A DNA stretch of 14,374 nucleotides from NCBI GenBank assembly GCA_024278215.1, contig JAJRTR010000008.1, positions 1 through 14,374 on the forward strand, in the 5' to 3' direction. The position numbers were made by a program, and so were the translations under genes. The stretch is from a bacterium. Its GTDB lineage: Bacteria; UBP15; UBA6099; JAJRTR01. The notes under the pieces are model-generated. The model saw only the letters and a program-made list of their open reading frames with translations, ran no database searches and was not told the origin of the DNA. Shown here piece after piece: positions 1 through 14,059 of the stretch. Position 1 is the first letter of the stretch. The number at the start of each line of letters is the position of its first letter.

Positions 1-54
1 CCCCCCCCCCCGCATATTCCGTTAGGAGCAGGTTTTCGTTCGGCCATCTGCTGC

Positions 55-3556: not shown

Positions 3557-6500
3557 ATGAGAAGAAGCAAACAACATTTTGTTTACATATACATTTCAAC
3601 AGTTTTTTTGATTCTTCTGACAGTTGCGGCGAAGAATGCGGTGGCTGCGGGCGGGCGGACGACGCTAAGCCCCGGCTGGCAGCTTGTAACTATCCCGTAT
3701 TCGCTGACTGAGGATAATACATGTATGGTCCCTGAAAACGGGGAAGTATTCGGTATTTCCCGGAACACTTACGTCATGTGCAACCGGATGGAAGGTGCCT
3801 GGAAACTCGGGAAAGGCTACTGGGTTTATGCCGATGCGGAAACCGAGTTTGCGGTAGACGGTAATCCGCTGCCGGAGGCGGGCTCATATAAAATTTTCCT
3901 CAAAAAGGGCTGGAATATAATCGGCACACCGTATCTGTTCAGTGTTTCAGTGGAAGACGCTCTGCTCATAGACAGTATTCCTATAACGGAATCGAAAAAG
4001 GTGAAACCCGAAATATTCGCTTATGACGGGGAGAATGAAGTTTATGTGAAGGCGAAGAAACTCGAGCCGTGGAAGGGTTATCTTGTGCTGGCGCTTGAGG
4101 ATACCGAACTCGATGTGTCGGCGATCGACGCGGATGAAACGGCGAAAAGGACGCGCACGCTGCGTATTGTAAACACGCCGGGCGCAGAAGCGGAAGAGGT
4201 CGGCCCGGAAGATTTCGACCCCGGCGATACAATAACATTCTGGGCGGCAGCTTATGATGAGACGGGCGTCTTTATAGATAATGTGCCGGTGGACTGGTCT
4301 GTCGAAGGCGACCTGCCGCCTGTTTCGTCCGAACCGTCGGACCACATCACTGTTACACTGCCTGAAGAGAAAACAGGCGGTAAGCTCAGGGCCGCCTTCA
4401 TGGACCTGATCGACAAAACCGGTTTCCTGACGATTATCGGAACCGGTGAACTATATGCGTTCCCCTTTGACGAAAAGACAATAACCGAGCAGGATAGTGA
4501 AACCGGCACGGATTACGTTGCCTCCCAGATTATAGCGGCAATATCCGGAGGGCTGGACGCGGCGCAGGTGAAAGATTTCATCGAAGGCCTGGGCGGCAGG
4601 GTTATCGGAAGAAATGTCGTTGCGGGCATATACCAGATAAAAGTGCCGGACGGAACAGCGCCCGAGGATTTTCTGAAGGAACTCGATAGCGAAAAAAGTG
4701 TGCTTTTCGCATCGCTTAATTACATCTTTTCGACAGGCGCGTATCCCGACGATCCGGTGTTCGGGCCGACAGCGCCACCGCAGCAGAAATGGGCTTTCGA
4801 CAGGATCGGAATGCCTGCGATATGGGATATTCTCGCGCCTGTGGGCGAGCCGGTAGTTGCGGTAATCGACACCGGCGTGGACGTCGCTCATCCCGACCTG
4901 GCGGACAAATTGCTTCCCGGCAGGAATTTTATCGACCCCTCGACGCCCGGCGACGTAACGGACGCAGGCGGCCACGGAACGGCTGTGGCAGGAGTGATCG
5001 GAGCGGAGGCAGGCAACGGCATCGGCGGCGCAGGAATATGCGCGGGATGCAGGATTATGCCGCTGAAAGCGTGCACGGCGGGCGGCGTGTGCCCGGTGTT
5101 CAACGTGGCAAACGCGATAACTTATGCCGCCGACAACGGAGCGGAGATAATAAACCTCAGCATCGGCGCACACCTGATACCCGGCACGTCCGCGGCGAAT
5201 ATTCTTGAACTTGTCGTAAATGACGCGGTGGCGAAAGGCTCGCTGCTGGTAGCCGCGGCGGGTAACGACGACACGGACATGAACACCTTCTATCCCGCCA
5301 GGCTAAGGAATGTATTTGCAGTAGCCGCCACAGACGAGAACGACAACCGCGCTCCGTTCTCGAATTACGGTTCGAGAGTGGACATAGCCGCGCCGGGTGT
5401 GAATATATACACGACGAATACGGGCGGATACGGATTCTATAACGGCACTTCACTTGCGGCGGCCTATGTATCCGGCGCGGCCGGGCTGCTGATGTCTGTC
5501 CAGTACGGCCTCGACAACAGATCTGTCAAAGGATATATCCAGGCGTCCGCGGATGTGATCGCTACAGACCGGATGATAGGCGGAAGACTTAACATAAAGA
5601 ACATGATGGCTTACTTCCTGAACAGTAATCAGCCGCCGGTCATCAGCAGTGTAGCGCCTGCCGCGCGATCCGCCGCGACCGGGGCGGCTGTCGCCGTCAA
5701 TGTTACTGCGTCGGACCCGGACGCCGACATTCTCTCGTATACATGGAGTGTCGAGGCCGGCAGCATCACGCAGGGCGGCGACTCCGCAGTGTGGACCCTG
5801 CCCGCGCAGCGCGGCAGCTATAAAGTCACCGTTGTGGTGACCGATTCGCTGGGACAGTCGGATGAGGCGGAAGCTTATGTGCTTGTCCTTGACGGGGCTC
5901 TCGAACAACTGCGCATCGAGCCGGTGAACAAAGTTTTTGAAATGGGCGACATCGGGCAATATCAGGTGTATTGCCTCGACAACGACGCGATATATAACGG
6001 GGCCGCCCCGGTGCTGTGCCATGCGGACGAATGGGACCTGAACGCGAATATCGGAACGCTCGACGATTCGGGCGCGTTCGCGGCGACGGCAGAGGGCGGC
6101 GGCAGGATATACGCGGCAGTGGATTCTGTCGCGGCCTCGACACGTGTGACAGTCGCACCCGCGGGGGGAGCGTCATTGTACACAGTAGCAGACTCCACGC
6201 CCTGTACTACGACCTGGGGGCCGCGTTGCAATATGGCCGGCACAAATACAACGACGAATTACCTGAATCCGCCACTTACGAGACGCGCCTACTATACCAC
6301 AGCTTCACAGATCAGGGATCAGGTGATTGCATATAACGGTATCCTGTATTTTGGAGACGCGAAAGGCTACATTTACGGAATCGACCAGACTACAATGACA
6401 GAAGTATGGCCACCGCTGGACCTGACGGCGAGGCCTGGTTCCGCTTTCCTTGGCGCTCTGGACTTCGACCCGACTTACAAGTTCGTATATGCGGCGTCCA

Positions 6501-9500
6501 ATAATGGATATGTATATAAAATCTCGATTGACGGATCGACAGGCTGGGCAGCGGGCACCAAGGTCTGGGAATGGACGCCCAACGCCGGCGTCGACATTTT
6601 CATAAACACTGTGACTGTGGACGGCAGCGACATCTATGTCGCCACATACCAGGAAGACGGTGTCCCGAATGTCGGGAGAATGTACAAAATCACGGATGGT
6701 GGTGGGTCGGCCTCGCAGAGTTGGGAATATCCACAGGCGCCTGCACCGCCCGCAAGGTCTTTCTGGGACAAGGTTGTCATTGACACCATAGGCGGCACAA
6801 AGATGGCAATGGCAGGCTCAAGCGGAGGTGTCTTTTATGCTGTAGACACAAACACCAGCAACGAAATTTGTACTTATAAACCTTCGCCGACGACGGGTTT
6901 TAATTCCGCTCCAACCCTTGTAAACGGCTTTGCCTATATGGGCAGCTCATCCGGGGATTTCTACAAAATCGATCCGGACCCGGCAAGTGTGGTAGGCGGC
7001 AAATGCAAATCCGTATGGACACCTCCAGTGCCGGTAGCCAATAAAATATTATCTCCCGCATCATATAAGAACAACGTCTTCTACTTTCCCGCATATACTG
7101 TGTCCGGTACAGGGAAATTATATGCGGTCAAAGAAACCGGTGCGGGACCCACCGATTACACTGTATTGTGGAGCTCCGAGTTGAACGGCGGATTATCTAT
7201 TGACCCGCCGGTAATATATGCTGCCGGCGCAAAACCTGCAGGGGCTCTCATCATGACATATAATCCCGGACAGGCTCTTGCTTTTAATCTCAACGACGGT
7301 AGTTTTATAGGAGATTGCATCGGGCTGTCGAGCATGCTGAGCACAAGCGTAATTCTGCCGTATAACGGTGACATGGAAGCCTATGCCACTTCTTTCAATA
7401 ACCTGACCGCGCTTGAGAAGAATTTCCCGCCTGTGATAACCAGCTACTCTCTGTGGGAAATGCCGGTCAACGGTGTCGCCATGCCACCCTACGGCACAAC
7501 GTCGGCCAGCGCGACAGTTCATGTAGATGATCCCAACGGTACTGATGATATAGTGTCTGTAACAATCGACATTACCCCCATCGGCGGCGCGTCCGACCAG
7601 TCACTATATAAAAGTTCGAGCACAAAGTATTACAATAAGTCCGACCTCATAGTGGAGACCGGTTCGCTGCCGGGCACTCATGAGATCATCGTTACCGTCA
7701 CGGACTTCGGCGGACTTCAGGCGACCGCAGGCCAGTTCATCGACGTCGCCAATCTCGCCCCGTCCATCGCCAACCTGACGTTCACTCCGGCGTCGGTATG
7801 CAACAACGGCTCCACGACCTCAACTGTGACCGCCGACGTTTCCGACCCCAACGGACTCGCCGACATAAACACCGTGCAGGTGGAACTCGCACCGATAAAA
7901 TCCGGCGTTTCCACCCCTGTCGACCTTTTCGACGACGGCACAAACGGCGACGCAACCGCCGGCGACGGCGAATACACCAACAACACGATCAGCGCGGATG
8001 CAGGCACAGCCGTCGGCACGTATCCAATTGTCGTCACCGTAACCGACGCCGCCGGCGAAACAGCGACCGACACTGAAAACATCGCCGTCGTCGACTGTAG
8101 TCCGCCGACGGACATTGCAAATGTTTACGACGGCCCCGACGCAGGTATCGACATTGATGTCGCCACATCGACAACAACACTTTCCTGCAACTGGACCGCT
8201 TCGAGCGATCCTCAATCGGGAATTGACAGTTACTGGTATGCCATCGGTTCGATGCCCGGTGCCACCGACATTCTCGGATGGACCAGTAACGGACTGAACC
8301 TTACCGTCACAAACAGCGGACTGGCACTCACTGACGGCAATACATACTACTGTACGGTAAAGGCGCGAAACGGCTCGGGGCTGGAGTCGAACCCGGCGAA
8401 TTCCGACGGCCAGAAGGTGGACAGCCTGCCGCCCGTGCAGAGCAACTGGAACCCCGCCGGCGGATCGGCGCTATGCACCTCCTCACCCACTGTTACATTG
8501 GATACCGATGAAAACGCCACATGCGCATGGTCGCTCACCGACCAGGCATACAGCGCCATGCCGGGCGCGAATGCCTGCGCGGGCGCGGGCACCACGAGTC
8601 ACTCCTGTGCGGTGACCGGCCTTGTCAGCGGCGCAAATACAGTATATATCGCCTGCATCGACGATCTGCTCAATGAAAACACCGCGCTGGATAATACCGA
8701 ACTTGCCTACACGGCGGACATCGACCCGCCTGTACAGAGCGCGTGGAACCCTGCTAAAAGCTCCAGCCTCACATCGAGCAGTGTCGATGTCGATTTCACA
8801 ACAGACGAGAACGCCACCTGCAAATGGTCGTTGTCGGACGACGATTACGCTGTGATGCCCGGAGCCAACAGTTGTGCCGGCGCGGGCACGACAAACCTGA
8901 CATGCGCGGCGACGGGACTTTCGCAGGGACCGGAGTTTGTCTACATATCGTGTCAGGACGCCTGCGGCAACGAAGACACAACCGCGACAAATGAAGACAT
9001 CGACTATACCGTGGACGCAACACCGCCCACAGACCCGAGCCCTGTGAACGACGGCACCGGTGCCGACATTGATGTAACGAATACCACCAGCGAGCTGTCC
9101 TGCAACTGGGCGGCATCTTCCGACCCCGAGAGCGGAGTCGCGAAATACTGGTATTCGTTCGGAACCTCCGCCGGCGCAAGCGATACCGTATCATGGACAG
9201 ATAACGCCGCCGCGACAACAGTAACGAAAAACGGCCTTACACTTACCGACGGACAAACATATTACTGCAATGTGCAGGCGGAAAACGGTGTCGGACTCAT
9301 GTCCGGCGTGATCACTTCCGACGGCCAGCTTGTGAAAACACCGCAGCCGCCCACTGTCGCAAATGTGCAGTTCGCGCCTGCAAGTGTCTGCGCTGACGGT
9401 TCGACAACTTCGACGGTGACTGCGAACGCCTCCGATCCCAACGGATTGCCGGATATAAATACCGTGCGTATCCAGTTGCAGCCGATAAACAATGGAACAC

Positions 9501-12382
9501 CGCTCGAACTCGACTTGTATGACGACGGTACAAACGGGGGCGACGCAACCGGCGGCGACGGCGAATTCACAAACAACGCTGTCGGCGCGGCGGCGGGCAC
9601 GGCCATCGGTTCGTATACTCTGACCGTCACCGCTACCGATATGGACCTCACAACCGGTTCCGCCACAGGCTCGCTCGATGTCGTCGACTGCCCCCCACCG
9701 ACGGATATTGCGACTGTGAACGACGGAACTGCCGCCGATATCGATGTAACAACTTCGACAACTCAGCTTTCCTGCAACTGGACCGCATCGTCCGACCCGG
9801 AAAGCGGCGTCGCGCGATACTGGTACTCGCTGGGCACAAGCGCCGGCGCGACAGACACTGTCGACTGGACGGACAACGCCGCCGCCTTGACTGTAACCCG
9901 CGCGGGGCTCGCCCTCACGGACGGTGTGACATATTACTGCAATGTCAAAGCGGAAAACGGCGCGGTAATGGTATCGAATGTCACAAGTTCCGACGGTCAA
10001 CTCGTGGACTCGACACCACCTGTGCAGAGCAACTGGAATCCGGCGGACGGATCGTCACTATGCGGAACTTCAGTGTCTGTCACGCTCGATACTGACGAAA
10101 ACGCCACTTGCGCATGGTCGCTCACCGACCAGGCCTACAGCGCGATGACGGACGCATGCACGGGCACGGGCACGACAAGCCACACATGCGCCGTCACCGG
10201 CCTTTCATCCGGCACGCAGTCGATATATATCGCCTGCACCGATAGTTACGGCAATGAACATTCGGCGGCAACAAATACGAGCCTGAGTTATTCGGTCGAC
10301 GGCGCTGCGCCCGTACAGAGCGTCTGGAACCCGGTGAAAGGCACAACGATTACGTCGACAAGCACCACTCTGATTTTCAATACCGACGAAAACGCCACCT
10401 GCGCATGGTCGCTCACCGACCAGACTTTCAGCGCGATGACAGGCAACTGTCCCATTACCGGCACTACAAGTCACTCATGCGACATAACAGGAATGCTCGA
10501 AGGCGCTGAAATGGTTTATACCGCATGCCGGGACGTATGCGGCAACGAGCAGACCACCTCGACAAATGAAAACATCGACTACATTGTGGATACGACGCCT
10601 CCGGTGCAGAGCAACTGGAATCCCGCCAAAGGGTCCATCCTGACGACTACAACGCAGGACATCACTTTCGATACGGACGAAAACGGGACATGCCGCTGGT
10701 CGCTCTCCGACCAGGCCTACAGCGCCATGGCGGACACCTGCCTCGGCGGCGGCACTTCGAGCCATACATGCCAGACAACAGGGCTCCAGCAGGGCGTCGA
10801 GATAGTCTACATCGCCTGCATAGACACTGTACTGAACGCCGACACTATCGCTTCCAACGAGGAAGTCGACTACACTGTCGACACCACGCCCCCGGCGGAT
10901 GTCCCCGTCTATGACGGAACCGGCGCGGATATCGACACACAGGGCGACTCCTCCTACCTTTCCTGCAACTGGGACGCGTCGACCGATGCCGAAACAGGCT
11001 TAGCGGACTATTACTACTCATTCGGCACTTCGGCGGGTGCGACCGACATCGTCAACTGGACCGACAACAACCTTGCGCAAACTGTCACCAGGACAGGACT
11101 GGTGCTTACGGTCGGCCAGATATATTACTGCAATGTTAGAGTAGTTAACGGCGCGGGCCTGCAATCCGGCGTCACAAGCTCGGACGGAGTGCTGATTGCC
11201 GACATAGCGCCCAGCCCGCCGGTACTCGCCGCGGCGGGCGAGGTGCACCAGATCAGGCTCACATGGACGCCGCCGACGACGACTATCGACGGCAATCCGC
11301 TCGACCCGGCCACCCTGGTATATAAGATATATAAATCAACAACCCAGGGCGGCCCCTACGCCGACCCGCCCCTGTTCACAACAGGCGCCGGCGTTACTAC
11401 TTATGTCGACACTGCCGTTGTCGACTGGACACGCTACTACTACGAGATAATCGCCGTACTGACAGGACCGGGGCTCGAAAGCAATTTTTCCAACGAAGCG
11501 GACGCCGTGCCGACAGACGATCCATACGTCTATATACAGTCATGCGGCTACCAGGACGATAATATTTATCACCCCGCCGACTACTGGGACTACAGCGGCA
11601 TCGCATATCTGAACGCGCCTTTTGACATCACCGCCGACAACGATTATCTCTACGTTTCCGATACGGACAACCACCGCATCCTGTCTTTCCGCCAGTCCGA
11701 CTGTTTCTTCATGGCACCGCCCTGGAGCGAGTTCGGTTTCGACGACGGCCGGCTTAAAAGGCCGAACGGCATTATCTTCGACAACGACAAGATATATGTT
11801 GTGGACCACACCAACCGTCTACAGATCTTCGACGCAGGCGCGGCCTCGGGCACTTTCCAGGTTAAATATACCGTGCCCGCTCCTTTTAATATTTCAAAAT
11901 CCGGAGACGGTAACCTGTACATAACTACATTCGACGACAGGGTTCTCAAGTTCGACCTCACAACCGGAACAATCGACCAGTCGGCTTCATTCGACACTAC
12001 ATCGCCCAGGGGCATCGTCTACAATCCTTCAAACGACAGGATATATGTCAGCGACCAGAACGCGAACATTATAAGGATTTTCGATCCGAGTACAGGACAG
12101 GAAACAGGAACCATCGGGAGTCCCGGAAGCAGAATAGGAGAATTCGACGAACCATTCGGACTGGCTGTCGATACGGCTGGAAATATTTATGTCGCCGACC
12201 GCAGAAACAACAGGGTACAGGTCTTCGACAACACGGGCAACATAGTGAATGTAATCGGAAGCTTCGGCTACACCGGCGGCAGCCTGCGAATGCCTATGGG
12301 GGTTGCGATTTCTCCGAGCACAGGCAACCTGTGGGTGGTCGACACTGCCAACCAGCGCATCGTCGAGTTTCAAAAACCGTAG
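3557..12382 (+). CDS. Giant secreted modular subtilisin-family (S8) protease with PQQ-like and NHL beta-propellers
   Basis: This single intact 2941-residue reading frame begins with a signal peptide (hydrophobic core at residues 8-25, AVAA near 28-31). Domain order by approximate residue: two GW repeats (35-190), beta-sandwich (198-293), I9/fervidolysin-like propeptide (318-395), S8 protease (405-690) with D438, H473, N570 and S632, PKD-like (695-775), Big-like (780-870), PQQ-like propeller (872-1287), A/B/C beta-sandwich array (1290-2550), FN3-like (2551-2653) and a six-bladed NHL propeller (2655-2941). Subtilases hydrolyse peptide bonds, so the expected role is an extracellular or surface protease on a long stalk with two binding propellers. 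The substrate is unknown. I see no LPxTG, PEP-CTERM, S-layer or type IX C-terminal signal; the NHL domain runs to the last residues. Transcription is divergent from moaA. The annotation as an S8 protease is firm; the biological role is not. Confidence 0.96.
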   Translation: MRRSKQHFVYIYISTVFLILLTVAAKNAVAAGGRTTLSPGWQLVTIPYSLTEDNTCMVPENGEVFGISRNTYVMCNRMEGAWKLGKGYWVYADAETEFAVDGNPLPEAGSYKIFLKKGWNIIGTPYLFSVSVEDALLIDSIPITESKKVKPEIFAYDGENEVYVKAKKLEPWKGYLVLALEDTELDVSAIDADETAKRTRTLRIVNTPGAEAEEVGPEDFDPGDTITFWAAAYDETGVFIDNVPVDWSVEGDLPPVSSEPSDHITVTLPEEKTGGKLRAAFMDLIDKTGFLTIIGTGELYAFPFDEKTITEQDSETGTDYVASQIIAAISGGLDAAQVKDFIEGLGGRVIGRNVVAGIYQIKVPDGTAPEDFLKELDSEKSVLFASLNYIFSTGAYPDDPVFGPTAPPQQKWAFDRIGMPAIWDILAPVGEPVVAVIDTGVDVAHPDLADKLLPGRNFIDPSTPGDVTDAGGHGTAVAGVIGAEAGNGIGGAGICAGCRIMPLKACTAGGVCPVFNVANAITYAADNGAEIINLSIGAHLIPGTSAANILELVVNDAVAKGSLLVAAAGNDDTDMNTFYPARLRNVFAVAATDENDNRAPFSNYGSRVDIAAPGVNIYTTNTGGYGFYNGTSLAAAYVSGAAGLLMSVQYGLDNRSVKGYIQASADVIATDRMIGGRLNIKNMMAYFLNSNQPPVISSVAPAARSAATGAAVAVNVTASDPDADILSYTWSVEAGSITQGGDSAVWTLPAQRGSYKVTVVVTDSLGQSDEAEAYVLVLDGALEQLRIEPVNKVFEMGDIGQYQVYCLDNDAIYNGAAPVLCHADEWDLNANIGTLDDSGAFAATAEGGGRIYAAVDSVAASTRVTVAPAGGASLYTVADSTPCTTTWGPRCNMAGTNTTTNYLNPPLTRRAYYTTASQIRDQVIAYNGILYFGDAKGYIYGIDQTTMTEVWPPLDLTARPGSAFLGALDFDPTYKFVYAASNNGYVYKISIDGSTGWAAGTKVWEWTPNAGVDIFINTVTVDGSDIYVATYQEDGVPNVGRMYKITDGGGSASQSWEYPQAPAPPARSFWDKVVIDTIGGTKMAMAGSSGGVFYAVDTNTSNEICTYKPSPTTGFNSAPTLVNGFAYMGSSSGDFYKIDPDPASVVGGKCKSVWTPPVPVANKILSPASYKNNVFYFPAYTVSGTGKLYAVKETGAGPTDYTVLWSSELNGGLSIDPPVIYAAGAKPAGALIMTYNPGQALAFNLNDGSFIGDCIGLSSMLSTSVILPYNGDMEAYATSFNNLTALEKNFPPVITSYSLWEMPVNGVAMPPYGTTSASATVHVDDPNGTDDIVSVTIDITPIGGASDQSLYKSSSTKYYNKSDLIVETGSLPGTHEIIVTVTDFGGLQATAGQFIDVANLAPSIANLTFTPASVCNNGSTTSTVTADVSDPNGLADINTVQVELAPIKSGVSTPVDLFDDGTNGDATAGDGEYTNNTISADAGTAVGTYPIVVTVTDAAGETATDTENIAVVDCSPPTDIANVYDGPDAGIDIDVATSTTTLSCNWTASSDPQSGIDSYWYAIGSMPGATDILGWTSNGLNLTVTNSGLALTDGNTYYCTVKARNGSGLESNPANSDGQKVDSLPPVQSNWNPAGGSALCTSSPTVTLDTDENATCAWSLTDQAYSAMPGANACAGAGTTSHSCAVTGLVSGANTVYIACIDDLLNENTALDNTELAYTADIDPPVQSAWNPAKSSSLTSSSVDVDFTTDENATCKWSLSDDDYAVMPGANSCAGAGTTNLTCAATGLSQGPEFVYISCQDACGNEDTTATNEDIDYTVDATPPTDPSPVNDGTGADIDVTNTTSELSCNWAASSDPESGVAKYWYSFGTSAGASDTVSWTDNAAATTVTKNGLTLTDGQTYYCNVQAENGVGLMSGVITSDGQLVKTPQPPTVANVQFAPASVCADGSTTSTVTANASDPNGLPDINTVRIQLQPINNGTPLELDLYDDGTNGGDATGGDGEFTNNAVGAAAGTAIGSYTLTVTATDMDLTTGSATGSLDVVDCPPPTDIATVNDGTAADIDVTTSTTQLSCNWTASSDPESGVARYWYSLGTSAGATDTVDWTDNAAALTVTRAGLALTDGVTYYCNVKAENGAVMVSNVTSSDGQLVDSTPPVQSNWNPADGSSLCGTSVSVTLDTDENATCAWSLTDQAYSAMTDACTGTGTTSHTCAVTGLSSGTQSIYIACTDSYGNEHSAATNTSLSYSVDGAAPVQSVWNPVKGTTITSTSTTLIFNTDENATCAWSLTDQTFSAMTGNCPITGTTSHSCDITGMLEGAEMVYTACRDVCGNEQTTSTNENIDYIVDTTPPVQSNWNPAKGSILTTTTQDITFDTDENGTCRWSLSDQAYSAMADTCLGGGTSSHTCQTTGLQQGVEIVYIACIDTVLNADTIASNEEVDYTVDTTPPADVPVYDGTGADIDTQGDSSYLSCNWDASTDAETGLADYYYSFGTSAGATDIVNWTDNNLAQTVTRTGLVLTVGQIYYCNVRVVNGAGLQSGVTSSDGVLIADIAPSPPVLAAAGEVHQIRLTWTPPTTTIDGNPLDPATLVYKIYKSTTQGGPYADPPLFTTGAGVTTYVDTAVVDWTRYYYEIIAVLTGPGLESNFSNEADAVPTDDPYVYIQSCGYQDDNIYHPADYWDYSGIAYLNAPFDITADNDYLYVSDTDNHRILSFRQSDCFFMAPPWSEFGFDDGRLKRPNGIIFDNDKIYVVDHTNRLQIFDAGAASGTFQVKYTVPAPFNISKSGDGNLYITTFDDRVLKFDLTTGTIDQSASFDTTSPRGIVYNPSNDRIYVSDQNANIIRIFDPSTGQETGTIGSPGSRIGEFDEPFGLAVDTAGNIYVADRRNNRVQVFDNTGNIVNVIGSFGYTGGSLRMPMGVAISPSTGNLWVVDTANQRIVEFQKP
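3656..4510 (+). other. N-terminal GW-repeat pair and beta-sandwich of the giant protease
   Basis: Encoded residues 34-318. Two copies of an approximately 75-residue all-beta repeat each start with a 'GW.(L/I)(V/I)..P' strand (GWQLVTIP near 40, GWNIIGTP near 118) and end with a 'W..G(K)GY.V.A' strand (LGKGYWVYA, PWKGYLVLA). These are common at the N-terminus of large secreted proteins from environmental bacteria and are of unknown role. They are followed by a beta-sandwich resembling bacterial Ig-like domains (RTLRIVNTPG through GFLTI). Placement before the protease propeptide means this whole segment could be released together with the propeptide on maturation, which is inference. Confidence 0.6.
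4511..5630 (+). other. I9-like propeptide and S8 catalytic domain
   Basis: The propeptide-like segment (residues about 318-395) has the fold signature of subtilase inhibitors: a helix (AAQVKDFIEGLGG), a central strand (VAGIYQIKVP) and an exit strand before the catalytic domain. The catalytic domain then shows VAVIDTGVD (D438), GGHGTAVAG (H473), the oxyanion-hole AAAGND (N570) and NGTSLAAAYVSG (S632), in the canonical D-H-S order. Two cysteines in CAGC and a third in LKAC lie shortly after the His motif and may form a disulfide. The usual Pro after the Ser motif (GTSMAAP) is Ala here, an uncommon but tolerated change. All catalytic residues are present, so activity is expected. Confidence 0.93.
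6170..7415 (+). other. PQQ-like (pyrrolo-quinoline-type) beta-propeller domain
   Basis: Encoded residues about 872-1287. Repeated blade signatures of the form 'Y.(G/A)...G.(I/V)Y.(I/K)' are visible: LYFGDAKGYIYGIDQ, VYAASNNGYVYKISIDG, MAGSSGGVFYAVDT, YMGSSSGDFYKIDPD and FPAYTVSGTGKLYAVKE. At least six blades are suggested. Such domains in secreted proteins usually mediate binding; the residues that hold PQQ in quinoproteins are not recognisable, so cofactor binding is not expected. It sits between the protease and the A/B/C stalk. Confidence 0.7.
7751..9340 (+). repeat. Beta-sandwich superblock 1: modules A2-B1-C1-C2-B2
   Basis: Approximate module limits: A2 7751-8097, B1 8098-8425, C1 8426-8722, C2 8723-9022, B2 9023-9340. 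Module A has PASVC..GSTTSTVTA, SDPNGL.DINTV and a DDGTNGDATAGDG loop like that of choice-of-anchor/Ca-type sandwiches. Module B has LSCNW.ASSDP.SG, YWY, TDG.TYYC.V.A.NG and SDGQ.V. Module C has PPVQS.WNPA, TDENATC.WSL, a Cys near +17, T(S/N).(S/T)C, VYI(A/S)C.D. A degenerate A-type module (A1, about 7423-7747) precedes the block and retains DDPNG..DIVSV but lacks the DDG..AGDG loop. B resembles FN3-type modules and C a Cys-rich sandwich found in large secreted proteins. Confidence 0.85.
9341..11204 (+). repeat. Beta-sandwich superblock 2: modules A3-B3-C3-C4-C5-B4
   Basis: Approximate module limits: A3 9341-9690, B3 9691-10010, C3 10011-10300, C4 10301-10590, C5 10591-10886, B4 10887-11204. 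The order repeats that of superblock 1 with one additional C module, which accounts for the size difference of about 270 bases. C3 shares with C1 an extra N-terminal cysteine (S(A/S)LC). C4 shares with C2 an extra cysteine in the D(A/V)CGNE segment. C5 has neither and carries a (V/L)LN(A/E) segment similar to C1. B4 is the most diverged B copy (DASTDAETGLADYYY). A 24-base stretch is identical in C1, C3 and C4 (8522-8545, 10109-10132, 10400-10423). Confidence 0.85.
11205..12379 (+). other. FN3-like domain and C-terminal six-bladed NHL propeller
   Basis: The FN3-like domain (residues about 2551-2653) has the core W in LTWTPP, the YKIYKS strand and the YYYEIIAV strand. The propeller (about 2655-2941) shows six NHL blades, each ending in an '(L/I)(Y/W)(V/I)(S/V/T/A)D...(R/N).(L/I/V)..F' pattern: YVSDTDNHRILSF, YVVDHTNRLQIF, YITTFDDRVLKF, YVSDQNANIIRIF, YVADRRNNRVQVF and WVVDTANQRIVEF. 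NHL propellers bind proteins or nucleic acids; in secreted bacterial proteins a protein- or glycan-binding role is more likely. The stop codon follows the last blade within three residues, so no separate anchor is present. Confidence 0.85.
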
Positions 12383-12466: not shown

Positions 12467-13993
12467 TTATCTTATGTAACCAGTGAGTTTAATACTCATT
12501 TTTGCAACGTCTGTGATCATCTCCCGATATTTTTCTTTTTCATAATCAGAGTCATACGTAATCATGCCTACAACATCCATATTATCGGAAAGAAACGCGA
12601 TGTCTTTCAGCGGTATCCGGCCTTCAACCGAATATCTGCCGATCCCGAATATCTTGTATTCCGCATCAGCTTTTTCTTTAACAGTCTCATATTTCTTTAT
12701 GCAGTTTTCAGTGCATTTTTTCCCGAAGGAAACGGCGGCGAAAGGTGTGTTGTCAATGATATTCATGAAATATTGACGGCTGTCCTCGGACAGGACGTTA
12801 AAGAAAGTCACCGCATATTGACCTCTCGGTACCCTCTGGGGAATCACAAAAGATGATATGGTATCATCCCCTGTTTTTCCCGGGTTCACATCCATTCTCC
12901 AGTATAGATAATTATCGTCTTTCGCAAAGTACAATGAATCGATGTGATCGAAATCGGCATTATTGTCCGACCTGAATTTCAGCAGCACGCAGGCGCTTAC
13001 ACCGATCCAATCTGAAATATCTCCGTCTGCCGTGATCTCTCTTTCCTCCGGCGCACACCGCCTGCTTATCCTTTCAACAAGTTTCCATTCGCCATTTATC
13101 AGATTGAATTTGTTGTCCATATAAAAAGCGTCGGAAATTGTTTTCTCATATCCCGTCTCCCTCAATACGATTTTCTCGATAGTGCCTACCACGGCGGTTT
13201 TCCCGTTTATAACAACATTTTCGATCTCCACATCAAACTGTTGTATACTGACGGACGAATTGAATTTTTCTATCGCGTCTGCAAGTTCGGAATAACTATA
13301 TACATAGTTTGAGATCTCGACCGTTGCCGTTTCCGCGAACAGACCCATAACCGCGGCTGTGTCTGATTCGCGAAATCCCGCAATCAGATTCCTCATTAGT
13401 TTTTTCAACTTTTCAACAGCAGCAGTTGTATCACCGGGAGAAGAATATGTTTTTGTGAGGTTGCCCACTGCATCATTGAAACTCGTGTTGTTTAATAAAA
13501 TCGTGACTGCGTCTGTAGCGTTTTCCGCATCATCGAAATTTATGTTTTTCGCAATTCCTGACAGCTCGTCACCAATAAACTTCAGTTCCGCGGCAGAATA
13601 GTTGTCTGGATCGAAAACGCCTCCGAGCAGCCATTCCGTAAGCGCTTCCGACACCGGATCGATACGCACGGAACCTGAAGTTGCTATTGCACGAAGCCGT
13701 CCCATTGATGTTATCGCTTCAACTACTGTTTTCCCCGGCTTCTCAGCGCCGCGCGCGACATCTATCGAGAACCTGCCGTCTTTTCCTGACTTCACGCCTG
13801 TTGTGAGCATTTCACCATCTGTTGTGTACACGCTCATAGCTGCATCCGGTGCCGGATGCAGCTTTCCCGATGTCGTCCGCTCTGAAGCAGGCGCTGGAAT
13901 TTGAACACTACCGGAAATTTCTTTTGCGGCGAGGTGACCGCCGTACAACATTACAACAGTCATACACACGATGGTTGACAGCCATATTTTCAT
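12467..13993 (-). CDS. Secreted protein with regulatory beta-sandwich, NTF2/SnoaL-like and CBM9/DOMON-like domains
   Basis: The product is about 508 residues. I place the start at ATG 13991-13993, which begins a typical signal peptide (MKIW, hydrophobic core, L-A-A near residue 23). A GTG at 14015-14017 is in frame but has no spaced ribosome-binding site; an in-frame TTG at 14006-14008 eight bases after AGGGG is a possible alternative. Residues 50-110 resemble a carboxypeptidase-regulatory/peptidase-associated sandwich (TTDG..L.TGVKSGKDGRFSIDV), followed by a helical segment. Residues about 195-312 look NTF2/SnoaL-like (AVMGLFAETATVEI, GEWKLVER). Residues 320-508 begin DGDISDW, typical of CBM9/DOMON-type sugar- or heme-binding sandwiches, and contain YLYWRMDV. 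The CTEN-C pair near residue 427 may be a disulfide. The function is unknown; extracellular ligand binding is likely. The gene is visibly more AT-rich than the giant gene. Confidence 0.9.
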   Translation of the reverse strand: MKIWLSTIVCMTVVMLYGGHLAAKEISGSVQIPAPASERTTSGKLHPAPDAAMSVYTTDGEMLTTGVKSGKDGRFSIDVARGAEKPGKTVVEAITSMGRLRAIATSGSVRIDPVSEALTEWLLGGVFDPDNYSAAELKFIGDELSGIAKNINFDDAENATDAVTILLNNTSFNDAVGNLTKTYSSPGDTTAAVEKLKKLMRNLIAGFRESDTAAVMGLFAETATVEISNYVYSYSELADAIEKFNSSVSIQQFDVEIENVVINGKTAVVGTIEKIVLRETGYEKTISDAFYMDNKFNLINGEWKLVERISRRCAPEEREITADGDISDWIGVSACVLLKFRSDNNADFDHIDSLYFAKDDNYLYWRMDVNPGKTGDDTISSFVIPQRVPRGQYAVTFFNVLSEDSRQYFMNIIDNTPFAAVSFGKKCTENCIKKYETVKEKADAEYKIFGIGRYSVEGRIPLKDIAFLSDNMDVVGMITYDSDYEKEKYREMITDVAKMSIKLTGYIR

Positions 13994-14059
13994 TCGATCA
14001 CTTAACAAAAGCAACACCCCTGAATATTTTGTGTGGTAATTTCAGCGTAATATAAGAAA

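Follow-up and report, generated by a model that had tools for sequence, protein, structure and literature searches.

Subtilases carry a propeptide that aids folding, blocks the active site and is cut after folding, and secreted hydrolases commonly carry PKD and FN3-type tails. To our knowledge, subtilases of the thermitase/fervidolysin type end after the protease or after a few beta-sandwiches. NHL domains such as those of TRIM71, Brat and Thin are eukaryotic intracellular binding domains. In PrtP and ScpA, cell-envelope proteases of lactic acid bacteria, several FN3-like domains in a row come after the S8 head, and many of these enzymes also have a C-terminal attachment region (PMC10535647). 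The subtilase STABLE of Staphylothermus marinus, which sits on the tetrabrachion stalk, cleaves its own surface-layer precursor according to one proposal (PMC5744192). A literature search with thin coverage of subscription journals yielded no description that combines a subtilase with NHL and a beta-propeller, and the main text of a 2008 survey of prokaryotic serine proteases is without NHL, PQQ or propeller.

Here we describe a giant subtilase encoded in a stretch of bacterial DNA of 14,374 nucleotides (the window), which is the entire contig C118 of an assembly of 4.55 Mb in 207 contigs. A first, sequence-only reading had claimed a single open reading frame of 2941 residues at 3557–12382, and this frame is indeed exact and uninterrupted, with 2941 codons, a stop and zero internal stops. 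Its parts are as follows.

3557–12382, + strand: whole gene, 2941 aa; ATG at 3557, stop ends at 12382
3557–3646, + strand: putative Sec-type signal peptide, aa 1–30; basic start and hydrophobic run, read by eye without SignalP
3653–4135, + strand: double-GW domain, aa 33–193; no Pfam family
4142–4456, + strand: Ig-like segment, aa 196–300; weak Big_1 match, 36% identical in the G005 relative
4484–4720, + strand: fervidolysin-type propeptide, aa 310–388; PF22148
4757–5620, + strand: S8 subtilase domain, aa 401–688; D438, H473, N570, S632 and invariant Cys 495, 498, 506 and 512
5627–5881, + strand: PKD domain, aa 691–775; Pfam E 1e-9
5903–6172, + strand: Big-like module, aa 783–872; homology to relatives, one family member scoring Big_2 at 3e-4
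6173–7423, + strand: PQQ/BamB-type beta-propeller (propeller 1), aa 873–1289; seven blades are clear, and an eighth probably closes the ring
7424–8098, + strand: modules A0 and A1 of choice-of-anchor-X/Ig type; NF041940 at aa 1456–1494
8099–9343, + strand: modules C1-B1-B2-C2; DNA repeats, C1 scoring Pfam fn3
9344–11206, + strand: modules A2-C3-B3-B4-B5-C4; DNA repeats and module alignment
11207–11515, + strand: FN3-like module, aa 2551–2653; sequence pattern, common to relatives
11516–12379, + strand: six-bladed NHL propeller, aa 2654–2941; Pfam, PDB matches and AlphaFold model

Since the window spans all of C118, contig edges bound both flanks of the gene. It lies between moaA upstream and the gene of a 516-aa protein downstream, both on the opposite strand, and the window shows no sign of an operon around it. 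The downstream product (12467–14017, − strand) looks exported and has a DUF4440/SnoaL-like middle and a Firmicu-CTERM match, both weak and below cut-off. A further frame on the − strand (55–2178) encodes 707 aa with a signal-peptide-like start and has no notable Pfam or NCBIfam match; the run of 11 C at window 1–11, at the contig start, probably reflects an edge effect of the sequencing or the assembly.

The protease domain of the protein is well supported. Pfam S8 matches aa 432–671 (E 9e-49), the best PDB matches are Ak.1 protease (1e-48) and thermitase (5e-44), and the Asp-His-Ser triad is found in D-T-G, G-H-G-T and G-T-S motifs together with the oxyanion Asn. Seven relatives retain all four of these positions (D438, H473, S632 and N570) without change, along with four cysteines spaced as CxxC...C...C, and the domain has a complete predicted catalytic triad. 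At aa 633 (window 5453–5455), directly after the catalytic serine, where subtilisins usually have an oxidation-sensitive Met, most family members have L, I, S, A or G. The PF22148 propeptide directly precedes the S8 domain (E 1e-6; 29.5 bits, cut-off 21). Matches named after T7SS mycosin, PatA and ScyF were far under their cut-offs and reflect the S8 and NHL folds only. For the Big module and the terminal FN3 module, neither segment has a Pfam match, and both calls follow the sequence pattern.

Ahead of the propeptide lies a domain of two units with GW[NQS]L(I/V)xxP and GYW(I/V)Y motifs, which had initially been labelled as GW repeats. This label had to be given up, because no Pfam model matches and the same domain is C-terminal elsewhere; in particular, no Listeria-type GW/SH3-like profile matched aa 1–400 at E up to 5, and the Listeria repeats were therefore rejected as the identity of aa 33–193. 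The double-GW domain, seen at window 3653–4135 and at L020, L022, L023 and L027–L032, has 12 matches in this genome and occurs in all seven genomes of the phylum in our set. The subtilases have it at the N-terminus, and some ten other large exported proteins of the genome end with it. We regard it as a candidate new domain family.

The two propellers differ in how firmly they can be assigned. At the C-terminus, Pfam NHL matches in five stretches (7e-27), six blades can be read by eye, the NHL domain of TRIM71 is a PDB sequence match at 6e-41, and an AlphaFold model built from the single sequence, of moderate quality (pTM 0.63), has NHL domains and six-bladed Pizza designs as its best PDB folds (E 5e-13). 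The NHL call is secure. Propeller 1 scores below the Pfam cut-offs (PQQ_2 1e-4, 22.1 bits versus 27.6; Beta-prop_ACSF4 4e-5), and 'PQQ-type' is therefore a fold-level description only, which says nothing on PQQ binding. A profile of two sequences, i.e. the window and its G005 relative, nevertheless retrieves only propeller chains from the PDB (Cake, Bagel, BamB), and seven blade repeats align at aa 922–1252. The blade profile matches the PQQ_2 region of the G001 relative, which Pfam certifies at 1e-21, with 3e-8 against 9e-4 for the best of 200 shuffles, and has no other match within this 4131-aa protein. No match to propeller 1 was found in the plasmid collection searched. Together, these data support a PQQ/BamB-type propeller, although less securely than the C-terminal one. 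AlphaFold models had been proposed as a check for two separate propellers: this succeeded for the NHL tail, whereas the single-sequence model of propeller 1 (pLDDT 46), even with BamB as its top fold match, is too poor to serve as proof of the fold. The claim of two different propellers and a modular stalk in one chain is nevertheless supported.

Between the propellers runs an array of 12 Ig/FN3-like modules plus FN3, with 97–116 aa per module, in the order A0-A1-C1-B1-B2-C2-A2-C3-B3-B4-B5-C4-FN3. At the DNA level its repeats are 60–80% identical, and repeats of 70–78% identity spaced by about 1590 bases suggest that an A-C-B block was duplicated as one unit. Conserved cysteines (two in A, four in B and two in C modules) fit the expectation for a location outside the cytoplasm. 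Pfam matches to FGF-BP1 and V-set are isolated, lie in B and C modules rich in Cys, and were taken as chance.

Is this protein an isolated oddity? This was not borne out: matches to the S8 head and the NHL tail are present in 7/7 genomes of the phylum (seven in the searched set), and the S8 domains form one clade. Many relatives are cut by contig ends, but head and tail occur in one frame in the window and in G001:C86 (4131 aa), G004:C44 (4269 aa), G005:C401 (3283 aa) and G002:C480 (4512 aa, cut at its N-terminus). An S8 tree set the eight family rows against 85 other subtilases (83 outside rows plus two more encoded in this genome) and placed all eight in a single clade (100/99). The window protein shares this clade, the GW head and the NHL tail. 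The tail is constant, taking up the last 290–300 residues in every member whose end is seen, whereas the middle varies. A PQQ propeller alone is found in the window and in G005:C239, which is cut just past the propeller; FG-GAP and PQQ_2 propellers occur in G001, an FG-GAP propeller in G005:C401, FG-GAP and several beta-helices (NosD/beta-helix) in G002:C480, and PKD arrays on contigs C446 and C472 of G002, perhaps the two ends of a single gene. Beta-helix motifs can be seen by eye in G001, G004 and G005:C401, where Pfam has no match at the threshold used, and the PQQ region of G004 is 91% identical to that of G001. In the S8 tree, the members with only a PQQ propeller form a pair (100/99) and the remaining six a group (99/95), so that the middle follows the protease lineage. 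No gene neighbourhood conserved between genera was found among the family loci, and neighbours are common to G001 and G004 only. With high confidence, which extends to the anatomy described above, the window protein is thus a member of a phylum-wide family of giant subtilases with a fixed head, a fixed NHL tail and a variable middle.

This family seems restricted to the phylum. Among the matches listed, none of the best 80 outside S8 loci has the NHL tail or the PQQ profile in the protease frame, and the tail profile scores 1e-112 or better within the phylum, with 3e-40 as the best match outside, in 386 genomes. Four outside contigs with NHL-tail matches and large frames (G211, G030, G048, G236) contain no S8 motif in these frames. 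The suggestion that the architecture is undescribed therefore holds for the nearest outside subtilases listed and for the literature searched.

Repeats can break or misjoin short-read contigs, and one could thus ask whether a repeat-rich middle joins two unrelated genes, the more so as a paralogue on contig C1 and the arrays on C107 and C172 of this genome end at contig edges. Such an assembly or fusion artefact is very improbable, however. The same head-to-tail order is found on four other contigs of other genomes, and the C1 paralogue (L036:3-4028), 57% identical to the C-terminal half of the window protein, is colinear with its tail module by module (B-B-C-A-C-B-B-B-C-FN3-NHL), its N-terminal part being lost at the contig edge. 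C107 and C1 were rejected as parts of one gene, as their ends have no exact overlap. Further giant proteins mainly of B and C modules are encoded on C172 (L018, L019), C34 (L020) and C107 (L021); on C172, an in-frame TAA separates a 3657-aa frame from a further array frame.

How might such a protein work? Its signal peptide, read by eye, would direct Sec-dependent export, and by analogy to subtilase biology the fervidolysin-type propeptide would be cut near aa 390–400, with the GW domain released too. The mature enzyme would then have the protease at its N-terminal tip, with PKD/Big and propeller 1 adjoining the active site. The earlier suggestion of a protease held between two binding propellers found no support, because the protease lies N-terminal of both, with the stalk separating the propellers, and propeptide processing would also remove the GW part. 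Propeller 1 would most likely bind a substrate or surface ligand, and the cysteine-rich Ig/FN3 array may act as a spacer, since its modules are repeated and have paired cysteines. As the NHL tail is constant across members, it may tether the enzyme, either to a partner or to the cell envelope, or be required for export, and replacement of the middle in evolution may have changed the choice of substrate or surface. Judged from this pattern of conservation, the constant parts probably serve the producer, i.e. retention or export, and the varying parts targeting. Overall, we moderately favour the reading that this giant subtilase is exported, belongs to a family specific to the phylum, and combines a middle that can be exchanged for targeting with a fixed NHL tail that serves retention or export.

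Surface retention is a guess, and free secretion is possible, because the C-terminus shows no known anchor or secretion signal; the signal peptide is the most hydrophobic stretch of the whole protein and the only strongly hydrophobic one. The main rival explanation, which seems possible if on the unlikely side, is thus a scavenging protease that is freely secreted to break down protein in the environment, with propellers and stalk serving only to bind insoluble substrate and without cell attachment. The lack of an anchor motif and of a transmembrane segment besides the signal peptide, the acidic excess of the 2941-aa protein (D+E 342 versus K+R 128) and its PKD and FN3-type tails, which secreted hydrolases often have, would all fit such an enzyme, but a constant NHL tail beside a changing middle suggests a shared partner on the producer, not a range of substrates. 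Alternatively, the protein could be a structural or adhesive giant of the surface, with a protease that mainly processes itself or neighbouring giants of the same modules. This genome does encode several giants built from these B and C modules and from the GW domain, has only three S8 genes in total, and self-directed cutting of a surface-layer precursor has been proposed for STABLE on tetrabrachion (PMC5744192). We consider this explanation improbable, however, given that no cleavage site is known and that family members elsewhere in the phylum have different array modules.

Returning to the retention or export reading, fixed ends around a changing middle amount to a natural experiment in re-aiming a secreted protease, and the NHL tail is a testable candidate for how these uncultured bacteria retain or export giant proteins. 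A farther-reaching version, which we find quite doubtful and put forward only tentatively, is that this phylum uses the tail as its own device for retention or export, in the role taken elsewhere by LPXTG anchors or type IX C-terminal domains, and the middle as an exchangeable targeting cassette. If so, this would be a bacterial protease display system with fixed ends and a swappable middle.

Compared with known systems, the protein shares its S8 core and fervidolysin-type propeptide with the thermitase/fervidolysin-type subtilases (S8A), with Ak.1 protease and thermitase as best matches, but adds the GW domain before the propeptide, the four invariant cysteines and some 2250 residues that make up its propellers and stalk. 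As in PrtP and ScpA, FN3-like domains come in a row after the S8 head; their LPXTG or SlpA attachment is absent here, and the comparison in PMC10535647 mentions no propeller. The likeness to STABLE on tetrabrachion, i.e. a subtilase carried by a long surface stalk, is one of working only, as that system is archaeal, its protease and stalk are separate proteins and the stalk is a coiled coil (PMC5744192). A propeller and PKD modules in one surface protein are seen in the archaeal surface-layer protein PDB 1l0q, a match of the fold search, yet that propeller is of YVTN type and the entry title is without a protease. The NHL domains of TRIM71, Brat and Thin match the tail best in both sequence and fold, but these are eukaryotic and intracellular, and no function carries over. 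Every part of the protein is known; what is new is the combination, its retention throughout the phylum and the constancy of its ends around a changing middle.
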